A DNA stretch of 36,349 bases from assembly GCA_025060075.1 (NCBI GenBank), contig JANXCZ010000035.1:1-36349 (forward strand). Direction: 5' to 3'. The notes beneath the pieces are model-generated. The model was not told the origin of the DNA and did not search any database. It saw only the letters and a program-made list of their open reading frames with translations. The position numbers were made by a program, and so were the translations under genes. Every line of letters starts with the position of its first letter. The stretch's first letter is position 1. This DNA is from Thermodesulfovibrio sp. GTDB lineage: Bacteria > Nitrospirota > Thermodesulfovibrionia > Thermodesulfovibrionales > Thermodesulfovibrionaceae. This document shows positions 20,503-35,559 of this stretch, piece after piece.

Positions 20503-21738
20503 ATGTCAAAGATTTTAGCAATAGTTCTTGCAGGAGGAAAAGGTGAAAGACTTTTCCCTCTAACATCATTTAGATCAAAGCCTTCTGTTCCTTTTGGTGC
20601 AAGATACAGAATAGTGGATTTTGTTCTAAGTAATCTCGTTAACTCTCAGATTTACTCAATTTATCTTCTTGTTCAGTATAAGTCTCAGTCTCTTATTGAG
20701 CACATAAGACAAAACTGGTTTTTCTCTTCTGTAGGAAGGGATCATTTTGTAACAGTTGTTCCTCCTCAGATGCGTATGGGACCTGAATGGTTTCAGGGAA
20801 CAGCAGATGCGGTATTTCAAAATATTGGATTAATTAGAGAGCATAATCCTGATATCGTTTTAATTTTTGGTGCAGATCATATTTACAGGATGGACGTAAG
20901 GCAGATGATAAAGTTTCATTTAGAAAATAATGCACAGGTTACTGTAGCTGCAAGACCGGTATCATTAAAGCTTGCATCATCTTTTGGAGTAATAGTAGCA
21001 GATTCTGACCAGAGAATTGAAGGTTTCCAGGAAAAACCAAAAGAGCCCATCCCTATGCCTGATAATCCAGAGATGGCGTATGTTTCAATGGGTAACTACA
21101 TATTCAATACAGACATTTTAATTGATGCTTTAGTGCGGGCTGAGAAGAAAAGACAACATGATTTTGGTGCCCATGTTATACCTGATCTTGTTGGAAGGAA
21201 ATGCAGGGTTTATGCCTATGATTTTTCTAAAAATGAGATTCCTGACATTAAACCCTATGAAGAACGTGGTTACTGGAGAGATGTAGGAACAATAAGTGCA
21301 TATTTTGAGGCTCATATGGATATGCTTGGAGAAAAACCTATCTTTGACATATGTAATAGAATGTGGCCTATTCATCCTGTTAGATACGAGGGTCCTCCAG
21401 TCAAAATTCTTGATGGAGAGATAAAAAATAGTGTTATTGCTGAAGGAGTATTGATATACGGAGGAAAAATAGAAAATTCCTTTATAAGAAGTGGTAGTAT
21501 AATAGAGAAAGGCGCAGAGGTAAGGGATTGTATTATTATGGATGATGTGGTGGTAAAAAAAGGCAGTAAACTTTATAGAGTTATAGTTGACAAAAAAAAT
21601 GTTGTTTATGAAGGAGAAAAGATAGGATTTTCACCTGAACAAGATCGTTTCAGATGTCATATAGATTCCTCAGGAATATGTATTCTTCCAAGAGCAGCAA
21701 GATATAATGATTGGCTTAAAGAGATTAATCGTGTTTAG
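20503..21738 (+). CDS. glgC: Glucose-1-phosphate adenylyltransferase
   Basis: Makes ADP-glucose from glucose 1-phosphate and ATP, the committed step of glycogen synthesis. The 411-residue protein starts LAIVLAGGKGERLFPLTSFR, with the nucleotide-binding GGKGxRL loop. SKPSVPFGARYRIVDFVLSN, WFQGTADAVFQN, LIFGADHIYRMD, FQEKPKEP, YVSMGNYIFN and YWRDVGTISAY are all GlgC hallmarks. The C-terminal beta-helix (after residue 300) carries allosteric control in this family. A strong SD (AAGGAGG) precedes the ATG. No other glycogen genes are in the window. Confidence 0.96.
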   Translation: MSKILAIVLAGGKGERLFPLTSFRSKPSVPFGARYRIVDFVLSNLVNSQIYSIYLLVQYKSQSLIEHIRQNWFFSSVGRDHFVTVVPPQMRMGPEWFQGTADAVFQNIGLIREHNPDIVLIFGADHIYRMDVRQMIKFHLENNAQVTVAARPVSLKLASSFGVIVADSDQRIEGFQEKPKEPIPMPDNPEMAYVSMGNYIFNTDILIDALVRAEKKRQHDFGAHVIPDLVGRKCRVYAYDFSKNEIPDIKPYEERGYWRDVGTISAYFEAHMDMLGEKPIFDICNRMWPIHPVRYEGPPVKILDGEIKNSVIAEGVLIYGGKIENSFIRSGSIIEKGAEVRDCIIMDDVVVKKGSKLYRVIVDKKNVVYEGEKIGFSPEQDRFRCHIDSSGICILPRAARYNDWLKEINRV

Positions 21739-23893
21739 GAGTTTTTTAATCTTTATTATTTTATTATTTTCTTGTCTTCCTACACACGCCCAAACACAAG
21801 AAAAGAAAAAAATCTTAATTCTTAATTCATATCATCATGGGTTAAGCTGGACAGACAACATAATAAAAGGAATTAAAGAGTCATTGAGTTCAATTGAGAA
21901 CAAGATTGAATACTACATTGAGTATATGGATACTAAGCGTTTTTACGGAGAAAAATACTTTGAAAAAATTTTTAATCTTATAAGTTATAAATATCATGGA
22001 GTTAAATTTGACCTTATAATCGTTTCAGATAACGATGCATTACTATTTACAATAAAGCATTATGAAAGACTATTTTATGGAATACCTGTTGTTTTCTGTG
22101 GAATTAACAACTTTAAAGATGAATTAATAAAAAAATACAGAAAATGGTTTACAGGAGTGGCTGAAGAGACAGACATAAGAAACACGCTTGATATAGCTCT
22201 TAAGCTTCATCCCAATACACAAAGAGTTTATGTTATTAATGATATAACAACCACAGGAATTGCAATGAAGAAAAGTCTTTTAGAGGTAGTACCAGAGTTT
22301 TCAGATAAAGTAAGTTTTATTATGCTTGAAAATCCAGATATGAAAGAACTACAGAAAGAGGTTGGAAAAATACCTCCAAGAAGTATAATTCTTCTTTTGC
22401 TTGTAAACAGGGATAAAACTGGAAACTTTTTTGCCTATGAGGAAAGTCTTGATTTAATCTATTCATATACAAACTCTCCAATATACAGTGTATGGGATTT
22501 TTATCTTGGCAGAGGCATTATTGGAGGAAAGTTAACAAGTGCATTTCTGCAAGGCAAGAAAGCAGGAGAGTTAGCATTACAGATTCTACAAGGCAAATCT
22601 CCTTCAGAGATAGCAGTTATTAAAGAAAGCCCTAATGAGTATATGTTTGATTATAATGAATTAACAAAGTTTAATATTTCAGTGAATGAACTTCCTAAGG
22701 AAAGCGTAATTATTAATTTTCCTGAAACTTTTTTTGTGAAGTATAAAAAAAGTTTGATGATTATTTCGATTATTTTCATTACTCTTTCCCTTATAATAGT
22801 TATTCTCATTATAAACATCTCAAAGAGAAAAAGAATAGAGGAACAATTAAGAATTTCAGAGAAAAAATATAGAGACCTTTATGATAATGCACCTGATATG
22901 TATCACTCTGTTGATAAAAATGGAATCATTATTGAATGTAATGAAACAGAGGCAAAAATGTTAGGATATAAAAAAGAAGAGATAATTGGCAAACCGATAA
23001 CTTATTTTATGACTGAAGAGTCAAAAAAAGCTCAAGCAGAATTTTTTTCAAATATAGAAAAATACAGTTTTGTTCAAGTTGAAAGAGACTTTGTAAGAAA
23101 GGATGGCTCGGTATTTACAGCCTCATTAAATGTTTATGTTGAGGTAGATGAAAAAGGAAACTTTGTTAAAACAAGAACAATAGGAAGGGATATTACATAC
23201 AGAAAAAAGATGGAGGAAGAACTTAGAAGATCAAGGGAGGCATTAAGAAAGTTATCAGTATATTTACAAAATGTAAGAGAAAATGAAAGAAAAGAGATTG
23301 CCAAAGAGATTCATGATGAGTTAGGTCAGTCTCTTACAGCATTAAAGCTATCTTTATCATGGATTAAAAAGCGTATTGAAGATGAGGTTTTACATACGAA
23401 GTTTGATGAAACATTAAGCATAGTGAATGCTTTAATAAAACAGGTTCAAAATATATCAAACAGACTGCGTCCCTCTATTATTGATCATTTAACCCTTGAA
23501 GATGCTATAATTTGGCAGGTTAAAGAGTTTGAAAAAAATACCTCTATAGTATGTCAGGTTGATATTTCAGAGGATGGTGTTAAACTATCAAAAAATGTAT
23601 CTTTAACTATTTTTAGAATATTCCAAGAAGCACTGACTAATATAGCAAGACATGCTAATGCAACAGAGGTATATATTAAGATGTTTAAGTCGGAATCAAG
23701 CCTTTTATTAATTATTAAAGATAATGGCATAGGAATACCGGAGGAAAAAATTAAAAGCCCTGAGTCATTTGGTTTAATGGCAATGAGAGAGAGAGCTTAC
23801 TCTATAGGTGCCACTCTTGATATACGTAGAGGAACTGAAAGAGGTACAGAAATAATTATTTCAGTGCCTATAAAAACTGATAAAAATGAATAG
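21707..23893 (+). CDS. Sensor histidine kinase with periplasmic ABC substrate-binding-like domain and PAS
   Basis: A 728-residue membrane kinase. A signal sequence lies at residues about 10-28 (FLIFIILLFSCLPTHA). An ABC_sub_bind-type periplasmic domain spans about 35-320 (ILILNSYHHGLSWTDNI, DLIIVSDNDALLF, IPVVFCGINNF). One membrane helix is at 349-371 and a PAS domain at about 385-500. A NarL-type HisKA_3 domain carries phospho-acceptor His536 (IAKEIHDELGQSL), and the HATPase domain has N-box Asn645 and G1 box DNGIG 672-676. ATG 21707 lies 32 bases inside glgC; GTG 21731 is an alternative start that keeps the signal sequence. The periplasmic module suggests sensing of a small solute. It overlaps the response regulator gene by 8 bases. 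Confidence 0.92.
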   Translation: MIGLKRLIVFRSFLIFIILLFSCLPTHAQTQEKKKILILNSYHHGLSWTDNIIKGIKESLSSIENKIEYYIEYMDTKRFYGEKYFEKIFNLISYKYHGVKFDLIIVSDNDALLFTIKHYERLFYGIPVVFCGINNFKDELIKKYRKWFTGVAEETDIRNTLDIALKLHPNTQRVYVINDITTTGIAMKKSLLEVVPEFSDKVSFIMLENPDMKELQKEVGKIPPRSIILLLLVNRDKTGNFFAYEESLDLIYSYTNSPIYSVWDFYLGRGIIGGKLTSAFLQGKKAGELALQILQGKSPSEIAVIKESPNEYMFDYNELTKFNISVNELPKESVIINFPETFFVKYKKSLMIISIIFITLSLIIVILIINISKRKRIEEQLRISEKKYRDLYDNAPDMYHSVDKNGIIIECNETEAKMLGYKKEEIIGKPITYFMTEESKKAQAEFFSNIEKYSFVQVERDFVRKDGSVFTASLNVYVEVDEKGNFVKTRTIGRDITYRKKMEEELRRSREALRKLSVYLQNVRENERKEIAKEIHDELGQSLTALKLSLSWIKKRIEDEVLHTKFDETLSIVNALIKQVQNISNRLRPSIIDHLTLEDAIIWQVKEFEKNTSIVCQVDISEDGVKLSKNVSLTIFRIFQEALTNIARHANATEVYIKMFKSESSLLLIIKDNGIGIPEEKIKSPESFGLMAMRERAYSIGATLDIRRGTERGTEIIISVPIKTDKNE

Positions 23894-24527
23894 GGAATTA
23901 AAAGTTTTGATTGTTGATGATCATACTCTTTTTAGAAAAGGATTAAAAGAAATCCTTCTTGATACTCCCTATATTAAAGAGTGCAAGGAGGCAAAAAGTG
24001 GATATGAAGCAATTGATATTCTCTCAAAGGAAAGCTTTGATATAGTATTTCTTGACATTGCTATGTCTGAGATAAACGGAATAGAGACATTGAAAAGAAT
24101 CAGAAGTTTATATCCAGAAACAAAGATACTAATGTTAAGTATGTATCCTGAAGAACAGTATGCAATAAGATCATTAAAGTGTGGTGCATCAGGATATTTA
24201 ACAAAATCAGCAGATCCTGAAGAACTCTTAAAGGCAATTGATAAAATAATTAAGGGTGGTAAATATTTACCTTATGCTTTTTCAGAGAAATTGCTTCATT
24301 ACATTGATAAATCTGAAGATATTTCGCCTCATGAAAAGCTATCAGAAAGAGAATTTCAAGTTTTTTTGATGATAGCTAAAGGAAAGAGCCTTATTGAAAT
24401 CTCTAAGGAACTTTCAATAAGCATTAAGACAGTAAGTACATATAGAGCAAGAATTCTTGAAAAACTTGGAGTTGAGAATAATGCTGAAATTATAAACTAT
24501 GCTATTAAACATGGTTTAATAGTTTAA
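23886..24527 (+). CDS. NarL/LuxR-family response regulator
   Basis: Partner of the preceding kinase (8-base overlap). Residues 1-120 are a receiver domain with acidic pair D11-D12, phospho-acceptor D57 (VFLDIAMSEINGIE), S85 and K107 (GYLTKSADPEEL). The common MP after the phospho-Asp is MS here. Residues 150-210 are a LuxR-type helix-turn-helix (LSEREFQVFLMIAKGKS, IEISKELSISIKTVSTYRARILEKLG). It should dimerise on phosphorylation and control transcription; targets cannot be read from the window. Its stop codon is 1 base from the 3' end of the convergent tRNA-Leu gene. Confidence 0.94.
   Translation: MNRELKVLIVDDHTLFRKGLKEILLDTPYIKECKEAKSGYEAIDILSKESFDIVFLDIAMSEINGIETLKRIRSLYPETKILMLSMYPEEQYAIRSLKCGASGYLTKSADPEELLKAIDKIIKGGKYLPYAFSEKLLHYIDKSEDISPHEKLSEREFQVFLMIAKGKSLIEISKELSISIKTVSTYRARILEKLGVENNAEIINYAIKHGLIV
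24502..24522. other. AT-rich hairpin at the convergent gene junction
   Basis: A perfect 9-bp stem CTATTAAAC / GTTTAATAG with an ATG loop lies in the last codons of the response regulator gene, 7 bases from the end of the convergent tRNA gene. It lacks GC pairs and a clear U-tract, so it is at best a weak bidirectional terminator. Confidence 0.3.
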
Positions 24528-24528
24528 A

Positions 24529-24609
24529 TGCGAGAGGAGGGATTTGAACCCTCACGGGTTTCCCCACTGGATTCTAAGTCCAGCGCGTCTGCCATTCCGC
24601 CACTCTCGC
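24529..24609 (-). tRNA. tRNA-Leu (anticodon UAG)
   Basis: On the minus strand the sequence begins GCGAGAG (24609-24603) and ends CTCTCGC plus discriminator A (24529), a perfect 7-bp acceptor stem. The anticodon stem-loop is CTGGA-CTTAGAA-TCCAG, giving anticodon UAG for CUN leucine codons. The long variable arm (GTGGGGAAACCCGT region) marks a class II tRNA, and the T arm GAGGG-TTCAAAT-CCCTC is intact. CCA is not encoded. At 81 bases it lies 25 bases downstream of purD and appears to share that transcript. Confidence 0.96.
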
Positions 24610-24633: not shown

Positions 24634-25899
24634 CTATATGTTCAATCCAATGTCTTTTCTGTATTGCATTCCCTCAAATTTTATAAGTTCTATAGCAGAG
24701 TATACTTTTTGCCTTGCCTCTTTGATATCTTTGCCTAAGGCTGTTACTCCTAAAACTCTTCCTCCATTAGTTACTATCTTACCTTCTTCATTGAATTTAG
24801 TTCCTGCATGAAAAACAAATAAATCCTTAATGTTTTTAACCATTTCAAGTCCCGTTATAGGGACTCCCTTTTTATACTTACCAGGATATCCTTCTGATGC
24901 TAAGATAACACATAAAGAGGCATCGGATTTCCATTTAACCTCTACTTTATTTAATTTTTGCTCTGAAATAGCCATGAATATATCTACTAAATCTGTTTCA
25001 AGTCTTGGAAGTATAACCTGAGTTTCAGGGTCTCCAAACCTGCAGTTAAACTCAAGCACATAGGGTTTGTTATTGACAATCATTAATCCGGCATACAGAA
25101 TTCCTTTATAGACAATCCCTTCTTGTTTTAATCCTTTAATAGTGGGATTTATAATGGTTTCTAAAATCTCCTTTTCAAGTTCTGGAGTAATTATTGGATT
25201 AGGGCTGAATGTTCCCATACCACCAGTATTTGGACCTTCATCGTTATCTAAAAGTCTCTTATGATCCTTAGATGTAACCATAGGAATAGTATTCTTTCCA
25301 TCAGTAAAAACAAGATAAGAAGCTTCTTTCCCTGATAAAAATTCTTCAATGACTACTTTGTCTCCAGCTGCTCCAAATACTTTTTCTTTCATTATAAGTC
25401 TCAAAGCTTCAAAGGCTTCTTCATAGTTTTGACATACGAAGACTCCTTTACCTGCAGCAAGTCCATCAGCTTTAATAACAATTGGAGTTCCCTTTAGTCT
25501 TATATATTCTTCTGCATGGGTATAGGATGTAAAAACTTTATATTCTGCAGTTGGAATTTTATGTCTCTTCATAAACTCTTTCGCAAATACCTTACTACTT
25601 TCAATCTGTGCAGCTAATTTTGTAGGTCCAATTATTCTCCTTCCTTCTTTTTGAAAAACATCAATAATTCCTTTAGCAAGAGGTTCTTCTGGTCCTACCA
25701 CTGTAAGATCAATCCACTCATATTTTACGAAGTCAACAAGAGCAGAAAAATCTTTATTTTCAACTTCTATACACTCAGCAATCTCAGATATTCCTGCATT
25801 TCCTGGAGCACAATAAATTTTGTCTACTACCCTTGATTGAGCAAGTTTCCATATGATAGCATGCTCTCTTCCCCCTGAACCTATAACGAGAACTTTCAT
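24634..25899 (-). CDS. purD: Phosphoribosylamine-glycine ligase (GAR synthetase)
   Basis: Joins glycine to phosphoribosylamine with ATP, step 2 of purine synthesis. The 421-residue protein has the ATP-grasp layout: KVLVIGSGGREHAIIWKLAQS at the N-terminus, CAPGNAGI, DLTVVGPEEPLAKGI, PIVIKADGLAAGKGVFV, VIEEFLSGKEASYLVFTDG, GPNTGGMGTFSPNP and EFNCRFGDPETQVILPRL. A strong SD (GAGGAGG) lies in the end of the globin gene, which overlaps purD by 4 bases. It is the last protein gene of the long minus-strand nucleotide operon. Confidence 0.97.
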   Translation of the reverse strand: MKVLVIGSGGREHAIIWKLAQSRVVDKIYCAPGNAGISEIAECIEVENKDFSALVDFVKYEWIDLTVVGPEEPLAKGIIDVFQKEGRRIIGPTKLAAQIESSKVFAKEFMKRHKIPTAEYKVFTSYTHAEEYIRLKGTPIVIKADGLAAGKGVFVCQNYEEAFEALRLIMKEKVFGAAGDKVVIEEFLSGKEASYLVFTDGKNTIPMVTSKDHKRLLDNDEGPNTGGMGTFSPNPIITPELEKEILETIINPTIKGLKQEGIVYKGILYAGLMIVNNKPYVLEFNCRFGDPETQVILPRLETDLVDIFMAISEQKLNKVEVKWKSDASLCVILASEGYPGKYKKGVPITGLEMVKNIKDLFVFHAGTKFNEEGKIVTNGGRVLGVTALGKDIKEARQKVYSAIELIKFEGMQYRKDIGLNI

Positions 25900-26786
25900 C
25901 TTTTCTCCTCCTCTGTCTTTTTAACCAACCAGTATACTATACCAATTATAAGAATAGCAGCTATTAATGAGATTATAAACTCAATTGTCTCATGTTTTAG
26001 CGTTGCTATCATAGTCTCTCTTATTACAGTAACAAGAGCAACTCCTATAAAAACACTTATTCTGAATTTTCCTCCTCTTAAGTGAGCTATCTCAGTATTT
26101 AAAAGTTCAAGCATAACCCAAAGAATAAGAACTGAACCAAGAGCAGTTATAATTGTCTGCTCAAGTTTGCCAGATAGTATTTGATATATATCTTTTCCAC
26201 ATAAATAAATAACAGCAAAGGTAAGAATACTTAGTGCGAATATAAGCACAAGGCTCACAAATTGAGAAAATATTTCAACATATCTTACAAGTTGGAATCT
26301 TATTTTGTATGCTGGAGAGTAGCCTTTTATTTCTTCTTCGAGATATGATGAAGTGATGATATCAAGGTTTATATCAAGTATTTTGTTTATAGAAATTATG
26401 TATTTTTCTCTGTCTTTCTCTATTTCTTCGTAAATTATATCAACACAAGCATTTCTTATTATATTCATTGCTCTTGTCATAAAATGAGGATCAACTCCCA
26501 CTCTTTCATGTTTCTGTCCAATTCTTATAAGAGAATCATAGAAGTAGTTATCATATCTGCCAGCAAATAGTGCTATAAACCAGCTTTTAACAAGTCTCAT
26601 TACATGATTTATTAATGACTCATTCTTAAAGACTTTTTTTACTGACTCTGTTTGAATGATCCATTGATAAAGAGCTCCTACTACTTTATCAACTCTTTTT
26701 TCCATAAGAGGCCTAAGTTCATTAAGTCTTGACTCATCTTCCTTTGTAAAGTAATAGTTTGCTTTTATTTCTTTAAATGGTCTCAT
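25896..26786 (-). CDS. Protoglobin sensor fused to PsiE-like membrane domain
   Basis: A 296-residue protein. Residues 1-155 match the protoglobin/globin-coupled-sensor fold: MEKRVDKVVGALYQWIIQ, SWFIALFAGRYDNYF and IRIGQKHERVGVDPHFM, with predicted proximal haem ligand His93. Residues about 165-290 contain four hydrophobic helices (near 172-195, 212-230, 244-258, 268-288) with LELLNTEIAHLRGGKFRISVF and VALVTVIRETMI, like the PsiE (phosphate-starvation-inducible) family. It may bind O2, NO or CO and pass the signal to the membrane part. It has no SD and starts 2 bases after the purH stop (TAATATG), so translation probably depends on purH. It overlaps purD by 4 bases. Its role among purine genes is unknown. 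Confidence 0.85.
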   Translation of the reverse strand: MRPFKEIKANYYFTKEDESRLNELRPLMEKRVDKVVGALYQWIIQTESVKKVFKNESLINHVMRLVKSWFIALFAGRYDNYFYDSLIRIGQKHERVGVDPHFMTRAMNIIRNACVDIIYEEIEKDREKYIISINKILDINLDIITSSYLEEEIKGYSPAYKIRFQLVRYVEIFSQFVSLVLIFALSILTFAVIYLCGKDIYQILSGKLEQTIITALGSVLILWVMLELLNTEIAHLRGGKFRISVFIGVALVTVIRETMIATLKHETIEFIISLIAAILIIGIVYWLVKKTEEEKR

Positions 26787-26787
26787 A

Positions 26788-28320
26788 TTAGTGTTTGAAA
26801 TGTCTTATCCCTGTAAATACCATAGCCATATTATACTGATTTGCTGCATCAATTACTTCTTGATCTCTAACAGAACCGCCGGGTTGTATAATGGCAGTCA
26901 CACCATTTTGAGCTAAAACATCAATGTTATCTCTAAATGGGAAAAAACCATCTGAAGCTACAACACTTCCTTTAAGTGAGGTTAACGCGTTCATAGCAGC
27001 TATTTTTGCTGAAAATACTCTACTTGTTTGTCCAATTCCAAGTCCTACTGTTTTGTCTTTGAATGCATATACTATAGCATTTGATTTTACATGTTTACAA
27101 ACTTTCCATGCAAACTCTAAAGCTTTCCACTCATCATCAGTTGGTTGTCTTTTTGTTACCACCTTTGCCTGGGAAAGTTCATTATCAATGTTATCCCATT
27201 GTTGAACTATAAATCCACCAAGAATTCTCTTTAAATCAAATCCTGAAGGTTTAATTTTACTAAGTAACGGTGGAAATCTAAGTAGTCTAAGATTTTTCTT
27301 TGTTGCAAAGACTTTCAATGCTTCTTCATCAAAATCTGGTGCAACAATTACTTCATAAAAAACACTAATAACTTCTAAAGCTGTTAATTTATCAACAACC
27401 CTGTTAAAGGCTATTATTCCTCCAAAAGCACTTACAGGATCACATTCAAAGGCTTTTTTATATGCAACATGAATATTTTCTCCTATAGCAACTCCGCATG
27501 GGTTGTTATGTTTTACAATTACACATACAGGCTCTGAGAATTCAGCTGCCAAAACAACTGCTGAATGCGTATCCAGATAATTATTGAAAGACATCTCTTT
27601 TCCTTGAAGCACCTCTGCATCTACTAAGGAAGGAGTTTCATTTAGAGCATAAAGTGCTGCCTTTTGATGAGGATTTTCTCCGTACCTTAAAGTTTTTACT
27701 TTTTTTAGAGGCAATGTCCAATCTTCTCTAAACTCTGAGAAGTTGTCTTTTTCAAAATACTCTGATATTAAGGCATCATATCTTGCAGTATGAGAAAAGA
27801 CTTTTTTTGCCAGCGCAAATCTTTTTTCAAGAGATACTGTGCCTTTTTTAATGTCTTCTATAATATATGGATAATCATCAGGATCAACTACTACAACCAC
27901 ATCCTTATAATTTTTTGCAGCAGCTCTTAGTAGCGTAGGTCCACCAATATCAATATTTTCTATCGCTTCTTCCAGCGTTACATTTTTTTTCTTTATAGTG
28001 GCTTCAAAGGGATATAGATTAACTACTACCATATCTATTGGTTTTATTCCTAAAGCTTTCATTGTTTCAATATCCTGAGGATTGCCTCTTCTTGCCAGAA
28101 TTCCTGCATGTATTAATGGATGGAGAGTCTTTACTCTTCCATCCATTATTTCAGGAAATCCCGTATATTGAGAAATATCTATTACATTGATATTTGCCTC
28201 TCTTAAGAGTTTTGCAGTACCACCTGTGGAAAGAATCTCTATACCTAATCTGTAAAGTTCTCTTGCAAAATCTATTAATCCCCTTTTGTCTGAAACACTT
28301 ATTAGTGCTCTATTTATCAA
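26788..28320 (-). CDS. purH: Bifunctional AICAR transformylase / IMP cyclohydrolase
   Basis: Catalyses the last two steps to IMP. The 510-residue protein has the N-terminal MGS-like cyclohydrolase domain ([75 protein letters not shown]). The transformylase domain follows ([74 protein letters not shown]). The start is TTG 28320 (TTGA overlap with the carB stop), with an excellent SD AAGGAGG 7 bases upstream. The use of TTG with a strong SD recurs in pyrC. Confidence 0.97.
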
Positions 28321-31300
28321 ACTGACACCTCCTTATGGTATTCTTGAAGAGATTTAATTTTAAGTTGAGAATCTTTAAGTCTTCTTATAGCTTTGATGAT
28401 AGCATTTGCTCCTGAAATTGTTGTTGTATATGGAATTTTATAATGTAGTGCTCCTCTTCTTATGTACATAGAGTCTCTTTGTGCTTGTTTGCCAAAGACT
28501 GTATTTATGATAAAATTAATCTGTTTATTTTTGATTAAATCAAGAATATTCGGTCTTCCCTCCTGAAGTTTGTTAACAACTTCTACATTTAAGCCTTTTT
28601 CTATTAAATACCTTGCAGTTCCACGTGTGGCAATAACTTTAAAACCAAGCTCTATGAATTCTTTTGCAACATGAACCACAAGTGGTTTATCTTTATCCTT
28701 TACGCTTATAAATACTTTTCCACTTAGAGGAATCTTTCCCATTGCACTCATCTGAGCTTTAGCATAGGCGAGTCCAAAATCTTCATCTATTCCCATAACT
28801 TCTCCGGTTGATTTCATCTCTGGACCAAGTATCACATCTACCTCAGGAAATTTATCAAAGGGGAAAATAGCTTCTTTAACTGTAACATAAGGTATTTTTA
28901 TATCACTTGGTATTTTAAGTTCTTCTAAGGTTTTGCCTACCATAATCTTTGCTGCTATTTGAGCAAGAGGAATTCCTATGCTTTTACTAACATAAGGAAT
29001 TGTTCTTGATGCACGAGGATTTACTTCAAGAACATAAACTTCAGAGTCCTTTATAGCATATTGAACATTCATTAATCCTTTAACTTCAAGCTCTTTCGCA
29101 ATTGCTATAGTTTGCTCTTTAATCTTTTGAATTATATCCTCAGAGAGAGAATAAGGTGGCAAAGAGCATGCAGAGTCTCCCGAGTGAATTCCGGCTTCTT
29201 CAATATGTTGCATAATACCTGCAACAACTACATCTACTCCATCAGAAATAGCGTCCACATCTACCTCTATTGCATCCTCAAGATATCTATCAATTAATAC
29301 AGGATGATCTTCAGAGGCTTTAACTGCTTCTTTCATATATCTAACCAAGGATTCTTCATCATAAACAATCTCCATAGCTCTTCCACCAAGAACATAAGAG
29401 GGTCGTACAAGAATGGGATAACCTAAGGATTTAGCTATTTTTAAAGCCTCTTCAAGGGATGTAGCTGTTCCACTTGGAGGCTGTTTTAGGTTTAATTTTT
29501 CTACCAATTCTTTGAAGCGCTTTCTGTCTTCAGCTCTGTCAATAGAATCTGCTTTTGTTCCAAGAATATTTACTCCGCAAGCCTCTAAAGCCTTTGCAAG
29601 TTTCAGAGGTGTTTGTCCTCCAAACTGTAGTATTACACCAATAGGTTTTTCTCTTTCTACAATATGTAAGACATCTTCAAGAGTAAGAGGCTCAAAGTAG
29701 AGTCTGTCTGAAGTATCATAGTCAGTGCTTACGGTTTCAGGATTACAGTTTATCATTATTGTTTCATATCCAAGTTCCCTTAAGCCAAAAACTGAGTGTA
29801 CACAGCAGTAGTCAAACTCTATTCCTTGTCCAATCCTATTTGGGCCAGATCCAAGAATGACTACTTTATTCTTATTTTCAGTTGGCGGAGCATCAGAGTC
29901 AATTAACGGTTTACAAACGATATTTGAAGAATTATTTTCCAAAGTATAAAAATTTCTCTCATAACTTGAATACATATATGGAGTATATGCAACAAACTCA
30001 GCTGCACATGTATCAACAAGTTTGTAAACAGGTTTAATATTAAACTTCTGCCTTATTTTTCTTATATCATCTTCAGTTTTATTCATAAGCTTTGCTATTC
30101 TTTTGTCTGAAAGACCATTTTGTTTTGCTTCAAAGATAAGATTTTTTATTTCCTCATCTTTAAGATGAGAACATTTTTTTAGTTTATATTCAAACTCTAC
30201 GATTTCCCTAATATTATTTAAAAACCAAGGATCAATGCCACTTAACTCGTGTATTTCATCTATGCTGAATCCTCTTCTTATTGCTTCAGCAATATACCAA
30301 AGCCGTTCAGCATTGGGATTTTTAAGTCTCCATCTTATCTCATCAACTGATGCATCTATTTCTTCAAATCCATATGAACCAATTTCTAAGGAACGAATTG
30401 CTTTACCAATAGCTTCTTTAAAGGTTCTTCCTATTGCCATTACTTCTCCAACAGACTTCATTTGAGTAGTAAGTATAGGATTAGCTTCAGGAAATTTCTC
30501 AAAGGTAAATCTTGGTATCTTTACAACTACATAATCAAGAGTTGGTTCAAAACTTGCTGGAGTAACTTTTGTTATATCATTAGGAATCTCCTCAAGAGTA
30601 TATCCAACAGCAAGTTTTGCTGCTATTTTTGCTATTGGAAATCCTGTAGCTTTACTTGCTAAAGCTGAACTACGGGATACCCTTGGATTCATCTCTATGA
30701 TAAGCATTCTACCATCCTTAGGATTTACAGCAAACTGAATATTGCTTCCTCCAGTATCAACTCCGATTTCCCTTATTGCTTTAATTGCACTGTCACGCAT
30801 AATCTGATATTCTCTATCAGTAAGAGTTTGAACTGGAGCAACAGTAATAGAGTCTCCTGTATGAACACCCATTGGATCAAAATTTTCAATTGAACAAATA
30901 ATAACAACATTGTCTGCTTTGTCTCTCATTACTTCAAGCTCAAACTCTTTCCATCCAAGAAGACTCTCCTCTATAAGAACTTGACTTACAGGGCTTAGCT
31001 TTAGTCCTCTATCAAGAAGTTCTTTAAACTCCTCAATATTGTAAGCTATACCACCACCTGTTCCTCCTAAGGTAAAGGCAGGTCTAAGAATTGCAGGAAA
31101 ACCTATATAATCAATAACTTCAAGTCCCTCTTTTAGGGTATGAACTGCGGCTGAACGAGGAACTTCAAGCCCTATTTTAGTCATGGCTTTCTTAAAGAGT
31201 TCTCTGTCTTCTGCTTTCTTAATAGCATTGAGATTTGCTCCAATAAGTTCAACAGAGTATTTATCAAGAACACCAGCTTCTCCAAGCTCAACTGCAAGAT

Positions 31301-31589
31301 TTAATGCAGTCTGTCCACCAAGTGTAGGAAGTAAAGCATCAGGTCTTTCTCTTTTTATAATTAGTTCAAGAACTTCAGCTGTTAGAGGTTCAATATAGGT
31401 TTTGTCTGCCATTGATGGATCTGTCATAATTGTGGCAGGATTAGAGTTAACTAATATTACTTGATAGCCTTCTTGTTTTAAAGCTTTACAAGCTTGAGCA
31501 CCAGAATAGTCAAACTCACAGGCTTGACCAATAATTATGGGTCCTGATCCTATTATAAGGATTTTCTTAATGTCTGTTCTTTTTGGCAT
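28317..31589 (-). CDS. carB: Carbamoyl-phosphate synthase, large subunit
   Basis: Makes carbamoyl phosphate from bicarbonate, ammonia (from CarA) and two ATP, feeding pyrimidines and arginine. The 1090-residue protein carries two ATP-grasp halves with parallel motifs. The first half has [35 protein letters not shown] and [18 protein letters not shown]. The second has [35 protein letters not shown] and [16 protein letters not shown]. The oligomerisation region lies between them. The C-terminal MGS-like allosteric domain ([33 protein letters not shown]) starts near 940. No strong SD sits at normal distance from the ATG; GGAGG lies about 16 bases upstream. Confidence 0.97.
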
Positions 31590-31624
31590 AGTATCTTAAA
31601 AATACCTCCATCTTTTAGGTCTTT

Positions 31625-32716
31625 TTATCTTTTTTCATACTCTCTTACTATTTCTCTAAATCTTTCAAATACATCTAAAGCATCATTGGGTCCGGGTCCT
31701 GCCTCTGGATGATGCTGGACTGAAAAAATTGGATATTCTACATGTTCCATTCCTTCTTCGGTTCCATCATACAGATTTTTATGAGTAAGTTTTACTTGCC
31801 CTTTAAGAGATTGTATATCAACGCAGTAGTTATGGTTTTGAGTGGTAATAGAAATCCTTCCTGTCTTTAAGTCCTTCACAGGATGATTACCACCATGATG
31901 TCCAAACTTAAGTTTATATGTTCTTCCACCTAAGGCAAGTCCTAAGAGTTGATGTCCAAGACATATTCCAAATAAGGGTTTTTTCCCGATAAGTTTTTTA
32001 GTATTTTCCACTGCATAGCTTAGGATTTGAGGATCGCCTGGACCATTGCTTAGCATTATACATGAAGGATTCATATCAAGTAAGACTTCCGCAGGTGTTT
32101 TTCCCGGAACTACATAGACTGAAAAACCAACTCTCTTAAGATTTCTCAAAATATTGAGTTTTACTCCATAGTCATAAACTATGCACAAAGGAAGTGTTTC
32201 ATCTTTGTGAAACCAATAAGGCTCTTTACACATTACAGTACTCACATGATCTATCTCTGAAATATCAGGATGAGCAAGAACTTTTTTATGTAAACTTACT
32301 ATATCATCCTCTAATGTGGAAATAATTCCCATCTGAGCTCCTTTGTCTCTTAAGTGTTTGGTAAGTGCACGAGTGTCAATTCCATGAATTCCAACAATTC
32401 CATATTTTTTTAGATAATCTCCCAAACTTCCTTCAGAACGCCAATTGCTTGGATAATCTTTATACTCTCTTACAACAAATCCTTCTACTTTCGGACCTCC
32501 GAGTGACTCTACATCTTCTTCATTTACTCCGTAATTTCCTATCTGCGTATAGGTCATAACAACAATCTGTCCTTTATATGAGGGATCTGTAAGTATCTCC
32601 TGATATCCAGTAATTGAAGTATTAAAAACTACCTCTCCAATAGACTCTCCATCTGCTCCAAAGGAAAATCCTTCAAATACTGTTCCATCCTTAAGAACTA
32701 AAATAGCTTTTTTCAT
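31625..32716 (-). CDS. carA: Carbamoyl-phosphate synthase, small subunit
   Basis: Glutaminase subunit delivering ammonia to CarB. The 363-residue protein has the N-terminal CPSase domain (LVLKDGTVFEGFSFG, GEVVFNTSITGYQEILTDPSY, HGIDTRALTKHLRDKGA) and a class I glutamine amidotransferase domain. In the latter SNGPGDP, nucleophile Cys252 (LFGICLGHQLLGLALGG), His336 and Glu338 (VQHHPEAGPGP) are visible. SD GGGAG overlaps the end of pyrC, whose stop is 2 bases before the ATG. It is separated from carB by 35 bases. Confidence 0.97.
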   Translation of the reverse strand: MKKAILVLKDGTVFEGFSFGADGESIGEVVFNTSITGYQEILTDPSYKGQIVVMTYTQIGNYGVNEEDVESLGGPKVEGFVVREYKDYPSNWRSEGSLGDYLKKYGIVGIHGIDTRALTKHLRDKGAQMGIISTLEDDIVSLHKKVLAHPDISEIDHVSTVMCKEPYWFHKDETLPLCIVYDYGVKLNILRNLKRVGFSVYVVPGKTPAEVLLDMNPSCIMLSNGPGDPQILSYAVENTKKLIGKKPLFGICLGHQLLGLALGGRTYKLKFGHHGGNHPVKDLKTGRISITTQNHNYCVDIQSLKGQVKLTHKNLYDGTEEGMEHVEYPIFSVQHHPEAGPGPNDALDVFERFREIVREYEKR

Positions 32717-32718
32717 TA

Positions 32719-34023
32719 CTACTCCCTCATATCAAAAGTTTTTTTACCCTTAAATGCAAATAATACTTTTCCCTTTAGTCTCCATCCATCAAAGGGCGTG
32801 TTTTTACCAAGTGATACGAGTTTTTCCTTGTCAACTATCCATTCTCTTTCTATGTCAACAACTATTAAATCAGCTTCAGCACCTTCTTTTATTCCATTTT
32901 TATTTATCTTAAGAATTCTTGAAGGATTTATAGTAAACTTTTCAATAAGCTCTCTAAGATTTAAGATCCCATCATGCACAAGCCTTAAACTCAAAGCAAA
33001 GGCGGTCTCAACTCCTGAGATACCATTTAGTGCCTCTTGAAAAGGTACTTTCTTTTCATCTATGTGATGAGGTGCATGATCACTGGCTATAACATCAATT
33101 ATATCTTCTTTTAATGCTTCTATTATTGCCTCTTTGTCTTCTTCGGTCCTTAAAGGAGGATTTACCTTTGCATTTGTATTGTAGCTAGCTACAGCTTCCT
33201 CTGTAAGTGTAAAATAATGTGGGCATGTTTCAGCAGTAACATGTACTCCTTCCTCTTTTGCTTTTTTTATTATCTCAACTGACCCTTTTGTTGATACATG
33301 AGCAATATGAATTGGTGCTTTAAAATGCTTACTAAGTATGACATCTCTTGACACCATTATTTCTTCTGAGGCTTTAGGTATACCTTTTAGTCCAAGATAA
33401 AAAGAGAGTTTGCCTTCATTCATTACACCATTTTCACTCAAGAAAAGGTCTTCACAGTGGGATATAATTGGTGCATCTATTGTTTTTGAGTACTCAAGTG
33501 CTCTTCTCATAATAAGGGGATTCATGACAGGCATTCCATCATCTGAAAAAGCTACACATCCTGCCTCTTTTAACATTACCATCTCTGAAAGTTCTTCACC
33601 TTTTAGTCCCTTTGTAATAGCTCCTATTGGATAAACATCGCAACTGCCTTCTTCTTTTGCCTTTGCAAGAATGTAGTATGTAACTTCAGGATTATCATTT
33701 ACTGGATTTGTATTTGCCATACAACAGACTGAAGTAAATCCACCTCTTATAGCAGCGAGTGTTCCTGTACGAATGGTCTCTTTATACTCATATCCCGGCT
33801 CTCTGAGATGTGTATGCATATCTATGAGCCCTGGAAAAACATAAAGTCCAGATGCCTCTATCTCCATAATAGAAGACGAAGACTTTGAGTTTGTTTTTAA
33901 AGATTTAACTTTGTTTTTTAGTTGAACTTTTGAAATAACTCCATCTTCAATAAAGATATCTACAATACCCTCTTTATTTGTAAAGGGATCAATCATATAT
34001 GCATTGTAAATTTTAATAATCAA
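32719..34023 (-). CDS. pyrC: Dihydroorotase
   Basis: Interconverts carbamoyl-aspartate and dihydroorotate, pyrimidine step 3. The 434-residue class I enzyme has metal-binding DMHTHLREPG (His70, His72) and GGFTSVCCMANTNPVND. Further motifs are SHCEDL, APIHIAHVSTKGSVE, TAETCPHYFTLTEE, KVNPPLRTEED and DVIASDHAPHH with the catalytic Asp. A Ser/Lys-rich insert at about 38-52 lies in the N-terminal beta domain. The start is TTG 34023, directly after the pyrB TAG, with SD GGAGATATAG overlapping the pyrB end. Confidence 0.96.
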   Translation of the reverse strand: MIIKIYNAYMIDPFTNKEGIVDIFIEDGVISKVQLKNKVKSLKTNSKSSSSIMEIEASGLYVFPGLIDMHTHLREPGYEYKETIRTGTLAAIRGGFTSVCCMANTNPVNDNPEVTYYILAKAKEEGSCDVYPIGAITKGLKGEELSEMVMLKEAGCVAFSDDGMPVMNPLIMRRALEYSKTIDAPIISHCEDLFLSENGVMNEGKLSFYLGLKGIPKASEEIMVSRDVILSKHFKAPIHIAHVSTKGSVEIIKKAKEEGVHVTAETCPHYFTLTEEAVASYNTNAKVNPPLRTEEDKEAIIEALKEDIIDVIASDHAPHHIDEKKVPFQEALNGISGVETAFALSLRLVHDGILNLRELIEKFTINPSRILKINKNGIKEGAEADLIVVDIEREWIVDKEKLVSLGKNTPFDGWRLKGKVLFAFKGKKTFDMRE

Positions 34024-34932
34024 CTATATCTCCTTAGGTGTTAAGAGATAAATTACAGCCATTCTTATTGCAATACCATTGGTTACCTGCCTAAGAATTA
34101 TTGAACGAGGACTGTCTGCAACCTCTGTTGATATTTCCACTCCTCTATTCATCGGACCAGGATGCATAATAATAGCATCACTTTTTAAATACGAAAATAT
34201 ATCTTTTTTTAGTCCCCATACATGAAAATACTCTTTAAGAGATGGTATAAAAGCAGCATTTTGTCTTTCAAGTTGAATTCTAAGAAGCATTACCACATCT
34301 ACGTCTTTCAATCCTTCTTTTATATCATAGAAAATCTTTACATTGTCTGGTGGATCTTTTGGCAGAAGAGTAGGAGGACCTACGAATCTTATTTCGGTAT
34401 CAAAATTACTTAAGAGATAGAGATTTGAACGTGCAACTCTACTATGTATTATATCTCCCACAATAGCTATCTTAAGTCCATCAATTCTGCCTTTTACTTC
34501 AAGAATACTGAAGGCATCAAGCAATGCTTGAGTAGGATGCTCATTTATTCCATCTCCAGCATTTATAACAGAGGCAGTTGTATTTTCTGCAACAAATTTT
34601 GCTGCTCCTGATGAAGAATGTCTGATAACAATATAGTCAACATTGTATGCTTCAATAGTTTTCAATGTATCATAGAGAGTTTCTCCTTTTACTACACTAC
34701 TCATACTTATTGAAAAGTTAAGCACATCAAGGCTAAGACGTTTTTCAGCAAGTTCAAAGGATGTTCTTGTTCTTGTTGATGGCTCAAAGAAGAGATTTAT
34801 AGCTGTCTTTCCTCTTAAAGTAGGAACTTTTTTAATGTCTCTATTAAGAACCTCTTTAAAAGCTTTAGCTGTATTTAGAATTTCCTCAATATTTTGTCTC
34901 GAAAGATCTTTTATTCCAATTAAGTCTTTCAT
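34024..34932 (-). CDS. pyrB: Aspartate carbamoyltransferase, catalytic chain
   Basis: Condenses carbamoyl phosphate with aspartate, the committed pyrimidine step. The 302-residue protein has the carbamoyl-phosphate loop FFEPSTRTRTSFELA (STRTR 52-56), SSVVKGETLYDTLKT (the 80s loop), IVIRHSSSGAA, GINEHPTQALLDAFS, IAIVGDIIHSRVARSN and MHPGPMNRGVEI. There is no pyrI regulatory chain nearby, so it probably works as a catalytic trimer or complexed with PyrC. An ATGA overlap with pyrR shows coupling. Confidence 0.97.
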   Translation of the reverse strand: MKDLIGIKDLSRQNIEEILNTAKAFKEVLNRDIKKVPTLRGKTAINLFFEPSTRTRTSFELAEKRLSLDVLNFSISMSSVVKGETLYDTLKTIEAYNVDYIVIRHSSSGAAKFVAENTTASVINAGDGINEHPTQALLDAFSILEVKGRIDGLKIAIVGDIIHSRVARSNLYLLSNFDTEIRFVGPPTLLPKDPPDNVKIFYDIKEGLKDVDVVMLLRIQLERQNAAFIPSLKEYFHVWGLKKDIFSYLKSDAIIMHPGPMNRGVEISTEVADSPRSIILRQVTNGIAIRMAVIYLLTPKEI

Positions 34933-35459
34933 TGTGTAATCAACACTACTGAGTCTTTTCCTGCAATTTCCTTAAGATAAACCTTAATCTTTTCATTTCG
35001 AGAGGTAGGTATATATTTACCTACATAGTTAGCCATTATTGGCAATTCTCTATGACCTCTATCAACTAATACAGCAAGCTGAATTTCAGCAGGCCTTCCA
35101 AAATCCATTAATGCATCCATTGCTGCTCTGGTAGATCTTCCAGTATAAAGAACATCATCGACAAGTATTACTTTTTTTCCGTCAATACTAAAGGGGATAT
35201 TAGTAGGCTTTATTTCTTTACGGTTTTTCGAGATATTTATATCATCTCTGTAGAAGGATATATCTAGAATTCCTAATGGAACATTTATATTTTCTATTTC
35301 TTCTATCTTTTTCTTTATCCTTTCAGCAAGATATACTCCACCTGTTACAATTCCTATCAAGCATATATTTTCAGCTCCCTTATTTTTTTCTAATATTTCG
35401 TGGGCAATCCGGTTAAGGATTCTTTCTATTTCTTGTCTATTGAGAAGTTCCTTTTCCAT
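34929..35459 (-). CDS. pyrR: PyrR, pyr operon regulator / uracil phosphoribosyltransferase
   Basis: PyrR binds uridine nucleotides and pyr mRNA and has a minor uracil phosphoribosyltransferase activity. The start chosen is ATG 35459 (176 residues, the usual PyrR length). The upstream ATG at 35504 would put the two predicted -10 boxes inside the gene. Motifs are NRQEIERILNRIAHEILE, LIGIVTGGVYLAERI, DISFYRDD and the PRPP loop VILVDDVLYTGRSTRAAMDAL (97-117). It ends RELPIMANYVGKYIPTSRNEKIKV. It is first in the operon, overlapping pyrB by 4 bases. No SD precedes it and the leader is very short, so classical attenuation upstream of pyrR is not possible. Confidence 0.94.
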   Translation of the reverse strand: MEKELLNRQEIERILNRIAHEILEKNKGAENICLIGIVTGGVYLAERIKKKIEEIENINVPLGILDISFYRDDINISKNRKEIKPTNIPFSIDGKKVILVDDVLYTGRSTRAAMDALMDFGRPAEIQLAVLVDRGHRELPIMANYVGKYIPTSRNEKIKVYLKEIAGKDSVVLITQ

Positions 35460-35480
35460 GATGCGAGAATAAAACTGCAA

Positions 35481-35501
35481 ATTATAAATCATTAAATTAT
35501 A
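35481..35501 (-). promoter_or_regulatory. Predicted promoter region of the pyr-pur operon
   Basis: On the minus strand two TATAAT boxes occur, at 35501-35496 and 35486-35481, with no strong -35 for either. Predicted starts near 35489 and 35474 leave leaders of about 30 and 15 bases before the pyrR ATG. The decayed insertion sequence begins about 60 bases upstream. Confidence 0.5.
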
Positions 35502-35559
35502 CATGATTTTGAAAAATTTTTCTATATAAACAATTTTTGTTGTGGTTACTATATCAAAA

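Follow-up and report, generated by a model that had tools for sequence, protein, structure and literature searches.

The window analyzed here, a 36,349-nucleotide stretch of a Thermodesulfovibrio genome that is 68% complete, carries pyrR, pyrB, pyrC, carA and carB together with purH and purD in one tight run on the reverse strand (24634–35504), with the pyrR regulator gene at its head. The upstream part of this run comprises carA, pyrC, pyrB and pyrR (31625–35504; PyrR and PyrC were assigned by NCBIfam), followed by carB (28317–31589), which overlaps purH by 4 nt and whose order with purH is conserved in the genus. Between purH (26788–28320, TTG start; NCBIfam PRK00881, 5.1e-228) and purD (24634–25899; NCBIfam TIGR00877, 8.8e-174) lies a gene with an ATG start at 25896–26786, also on the reverse strand, which encodes a 296-aa fusion of a protoglobin domain to a PsiE-type membrane module. 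A tRNA gene (24529–24609), the sole match in an Rfam scan, is found on the same strand as purD and 24 bases past its stop, and a promoter scan returned a site count not above that in shuffled sequences. The forward strand carries genes (21707–24527) that converge on the purine run and encode a histidine kinase and, after it, a LuxR-type response regulator; the kinase combines an ABC substrate-binding-like sensor part with PAS, HisKA_3 and ATPase domains.

The fusion gene is packed closely against both of its neighbors. The purH stop ends at 26788, and a single intergenic base (26787) separates it from the globin ATG, where a first-pass annotation of the locus had placed the start two bases past purH. 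The same annotation had correctly described a 4-base overlap with purD, which is an ATGA (25896–25899) shared by the globin–PsiE stop and the purD start. It had also stated that the gene lacks a Shine-Dalgarno of its own; the bases ahead of the start codon (..CATTTCAAACACTAAT-ATG) contain none, and the strong Shine-Dalgarno of purD (GAGGAGGAG) is located within the 3′ end of the globin gene. Judged from these junctions, synthesis of the protein is probably tied to the purine genes by translational coupling, as had been proposed. All 16 Thermodesulfovibrio genomes examined contained purH–globin–purD with carB upstream. The purD overlap was 4 nt in every one of these genomes, and the globin start fell 1 nt past the purH stop in 14 of them (in the remaining two, 2 nt and −1 nt). 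Both domains had dN/dS values of 0.07–0.11 and are under strong purifying selection. A chance or artefactual arrangement was rejected on the basis of the 16/16 genomes and the dN/dS of about 0.09.

The N-terminal half of the protein (residues 5–152; 26331–26774, reverse strand) matched the Pfam Protoglobin family at 1.9e-27 (96.6 bits against a cut-off of 25). The nearest solved structure by sequence was 2w31 (4.9e-29), with AfGcHK and HemAT ranking next. AlphaFold, given four input sequences, modeled the globin part with confidence, and Foldseek returned 2w31 as the top match to it (TM-score 0.81 on the target, 35% identity), with 5ohe and 1or4 also among the fold matches. H93 is the proximal histidine (F8) and aligned with HisF8 (H93) of 2w31; it is a histidine in 38/38 full-length relatives of the alignment, in which H101 is likewise invariant. 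The Pfam match and this alignment bear out the earlier description of a protoglobin domain with a clear proximal His, and no failure of the globin half to align with protoglobins at that residue was seen. With an N-terminal Protoglobin domain, a helix-F proximal His and a C-terminal domain in the same ORF, the protein has the layout of a globin-coupled sensor. The PsiE module shares the ORF with the globin in the full-length relatives, and both domains exceeded their cut-offs in four diverse relatives as well as in the window protein.

The distal side of the haem pocket was far more variable. The window protein carries Y40 at B10 and V66 at E11, and thus does not have the His at E11 that marks the bis-histidyl GsGCS type. 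At E11 (position 66), Val or Ile was found in Thermodesulfovibrio, Gln in most other relatives and Arg in L062; His was confined, among the sequences aligned, to L055, L057 and L067–L071. At B10 (position 40), most of the genus has Tyr, and His, Phe, Ser, Asn, Asp or Glu occur elsewhere. The predicted distal haem chemistry has thus been rewired across the family while the protein persisted, and variation of this extent at B10 and E11 argues against all members sharing a single fixed ligand.

The C-terminal half (residues 177–292; 25911–26258, reverse strand) matched Pfam PF06146 (PsiE) at 3.1e-24, with 85.9 bits against a cut-off of 23.9 and coverage of model positions 2–121 of 122. It scored only 22.5 bits against the 138 required by the NCBIfam PsiE equivalog, so that by profile score the window protein is a PF06146 family member and not PsiE proper. 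Hydropathy placed hydrophobic segments around residues 186, 220, 252 and 279, which fit four membrane helices and, with the Pfam match, uphold the proposed fusion to a four-helix PsiE-like membrane module. In alignments, E227 and R256 were common to the fused form and to stand-alone PsiE proteins of the same phylum, and W223, E232, H235 and an HLRGGKF loop (HL[KR]GGKF) were characteristic of the fused form. Across the order, pairwise identity averaged 0.79 in TM2–TM3 vs. 0.50 in the globin. AlphaFold modeled the membrane half poorly (pLDDT about 50–60), and a PDB search with the membrane-module profile gave no match at E up to 10. Based on hydropathy and the positive-inside rule, the charges would place the TM2–TM3 loop and the C-terminus in the cytoplasm, and hence the globin as well. 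One relative, L072 (5215–5649, reverse strand), has lost approximately 150 globin codons in frame, leaving a 144-aa protein that consists of residues 1–22 and the PsiE module; the truncated gene still lies between purH and purD, and no protoglobin was found anywhere in the source genome (G064, 98% complete). Retention of the module in the absence of its globin fits the membrane module being the working part.

A homologue survey of the phylum Nitrospirota found orthologues to be widespread in the order and present in two further families. Linkage to purH and purD extended beyond the genus to five more families of the order (f5, f6, f7, f8 and f12), in some cases rearranged, and the order of genes reported by the first-pass annotation is conserved in relatives. 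The gene was located outside purHD in families f9, f10, f13 and f23 and in part of f5. The globin–PsiE fusion is old. Searches of plasmid and phage collections returned matches to the globin part only. In eleven of the loci (L062, L063, L067–L069, L100, L143, L150, L152, L153 and L159), only PurH residues 1 to 190–205, the IMP cyclohydrolase part, had a match beside globin/purD, and the formyltransferase half of PurH was absent from the locus.

The neighbors of copies outside purHD were also investigated. In family f23, genes for a CBS protein and an HPP (TM_HPP) membrane protein, both named by Pfam, adjoined the globin in 13/13 loci (L085–L092, L094, L095, L097, L098 and L101). NorB was encoded within 4.2 kb in 5/13 of these loci and NrfA within 1.5 kb in 3/13; the NorB identification rests on a match of 1.1e-109 to the nitric oxide reductase 3o0r vs. 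6e-5 to the cbb3 oxidase 3mk7. A passage of PMC4137279, citing Maeda 2014, names the HPP protein AtNITR2;1 as a nitrite transporter candidate, and globin–PsiE, CBS and HPP possibly form a three-gene gas/nitrite module in f23. In family f10, the globin gene of L061 is divergent from nrfHA at a distance of 156 nt, and that of L059 is divergent from genes for a Fur-type regulator and a flavodiiron protein. These NO/nitrite neighbors represent three settings in two families and not nine events, because the f23 cases, which supply most of them, share ancestry; they therefore reflect few independent events. The deep f26 group has neighbors that we take, from reading of the sequences, to be a universal-stress protein, a cation ATPase and an alanine dehydrogenase. 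Co-occurrence across genomes was rejected as support for a connection to NO: globin presence across the order had no association with NrfA (p=0.56) and a weak one with NorB (p=0.048, uncorrected and among related genomes), and the Thermodesulfovibrio genomes contained no NorB match.

Taken together, we propose that the protein is a globin-coupled gas sensor that is anchored in the membrane and uses the PsiE module as its output; it would probably respond to NO or O2 stress and be hosted by the purine operon, a reading to which we assign a probability of roughly 50%. By analogy with globin-coupled sensors at large, it would act as a dimer. Binding of a gas (NO, O2 or CO), or a change in haem redox state, would alter the putative haem-bound globin, and the change may be transmitted through long helices around residues 126–198 into the membrane module. 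The output would be the PsiE module itself, through E227, R256 and the presumed cytoplasmic HLRGGKF loop, changing either the membrane or a membrane partner. Nitrogen-oxide or O2 stress is the most likely signal, judging from the neighbors of relatives. The occurrence of the gene outside purHD, often beside NO-, nitrite- or O2-reducing enzymes, argues that its biochemistry is independent of the purine genes. In Thermodesulfovibrio, the gene would ride the pyrRBC–carAB–purH–purD run and be translated by coupling to purH, and the operon would most likely provide steady, growth-linked expression, with no need for direct control of purine enzymes. The first-pass annotation had suggested a gas sensor linking O2, NO or redox state to nucleotide or phosphate economy. 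The sensor-plus-membrane layout agrees with the first part of that suggestion, but the purine or phosphate link found no support: the gene leaves purHD in relatives, and no phosphate gene was recognized among the neighbors examined. A phosphate role for the PsiE half was accordingly set aside as an argument from the family name.

As regards location only, the seat between purH and purD may mean nothing beyond common descent: an ancestral insertion at the purH–purD junction would have been passed on and, in some lineages, lost. This account is compatible with the gas-sensor reading, and we give it a little less than an even chance. On the protein tree, which was built quickly and has 17 open forks, the purHD label was clustered, changing 4 times vs. 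about 22 in shuffles. Linked copies occupied deep branches (f6, f7) as well as branches close to the window sequence, so the linked state looks older and the unlinked clade derived. In relatives without a globin here, purH (full-length or short) was still upstream of purD in 14/20 loci fetched, which supports purHD being intact and independent of the globin. However, the near-exact overlaps in the 16 genus genomes and the retention of linkage across families at 45–60% identity suggest, at the least, selection for co-expression.

A second alternative is that the protein is a redox enzyme, a membrane-anchored globin that takes up electrons at the membrane and either eliminates NO or O2 or acts as an electron shuttle. 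The HisE11/HisF8 pair of L055, L057 and L067–L071 is the bis-histidyl arrangement reported for the Geobacter globin (PMC3287990, PMC3680402), NO, nitrite and O2 reductases adjoin part of the family, and a membrane-bound globin of C. elegans has a proposed redox role (PMC3520999). We nevertheless consider an enzymatic function unlikely, given that the protein has no reductase domain, that the window protein carries Val at E11, and that conservation peaks in the membrane module and not in the haem pocket.

It is similarly improbable, in our judgment, that the protein regulates purine synthesis, with a gas or redox signal acting on PurH/PurD or purine flux and the gene order reflecting a functional pairing. 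Such a pairing would fit the persistence of purH–globin–purD in six families of the order despite differing upstream genes (carB in the genus, others in f12). It would also fit the near-fixed overlap and spacing in the genus and a proximity that survived rearrangement, to globin–purD without purH in f6 (L070, L071) and to globin–purH–purD in L096. Yet the derived clade lives without the linkage, purHD lacks a globin in many relatives, and a gene inserted with overlaps into an operon can persist passively. Moreover, Pfam identified no domain besides the globin and PsiE.

It is very improbable that the protein handles haem at the membrane, supplying it to cytochromes or buffering it for them: cytochrome genes (NorCB, NrfHA and a CydA-like gene) do lie near some copies and the distal ligands are variable, but no cytochrome-maturation or haem-synthesis genes were recognized beside the globin in the loci examined, and no protoglobin that transfers haem is known to us.

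Within the gas-sensor reading, we tentatively suggest that the PsiE module acts as a membrane effector under gas control, in which haem-ligand binding might switch the four-helix unit (as a channel, carrier or partner-binding element) via the conserved Glu and Arg. This more specific idea is possible rather than probable; if true, it would give the orphan PsiE family, E. coli PsiE included, its first defined input and a functional handle. PsiE-family proteins occurred from E. coli to archaea in our control genomes and, to our knowledge, have no known function, so a conserved natural fusion to a haem sensor offers a testable input for the family. The relatives also provide a natural series of haem pockets (His, Gln, Arg, Val and Ile at E11; Tyr, His, Phe, Ser, Asn, Asp and Glu at B10) on one nearly frozen output, a useful resource for studying how ligand choice depends on the distal residues. 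The conserved purH–purD seat clearly exemplifies a housekeeping operon that hosts a sensor.

Among known systems, GsGCS of Geobacter sulfurreducens (globin domain 2w31) is the best sequence and fold match to the window globin, with an N-terminal globin of approximately 160 residues and H93 at the same position. At its C-terminus, full-length GsGCS carries a transmembrane domain whose function is not known. It differs in having HisE11 (H66) and a bis-histidyl haem, whereas the window protein has V66 and TyrB10. The globins of HemAT, AfGcHK and DosC/BpeGReg are homologous to the window globin over its length, and Tyr45 of AfGcHK aligned with the window TyrB10 (Y40), but in place of a PsiE membrane module these sensors use chemotaxis, histidine kinase or c-di-GMP domains as output. 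E. coli PsiE is phosphate-starvation-inducible and of unknown function. The membrane half matches its family, PF06146, and shares E227 and R256 with stand-alone PsiE of the phylum, from which it is distinguished by fusion to a globin and by the additional W223, E232, H235 and HL[KR]GGKF. Protoglobin domains with c-di-GMP outputs are described in a review (PMC8846402), and our search of the literature for a PsiE–globin protein or a Thermodesulfovibrio globin found nothing relevant, in line with the first-pass view that the arrangement had no described function. Globin X and C. elegans GLB-26 are, like the window protein, haem globins held at the membrane (PMC3176823, PMC3520999), but they belong to other globin families and use a lipid anchor in place of a fused four-helix domain. 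Globin-coupled sensors are a known class, to which this locus contributes a PsiE-type output that had no described function in the literature searched.
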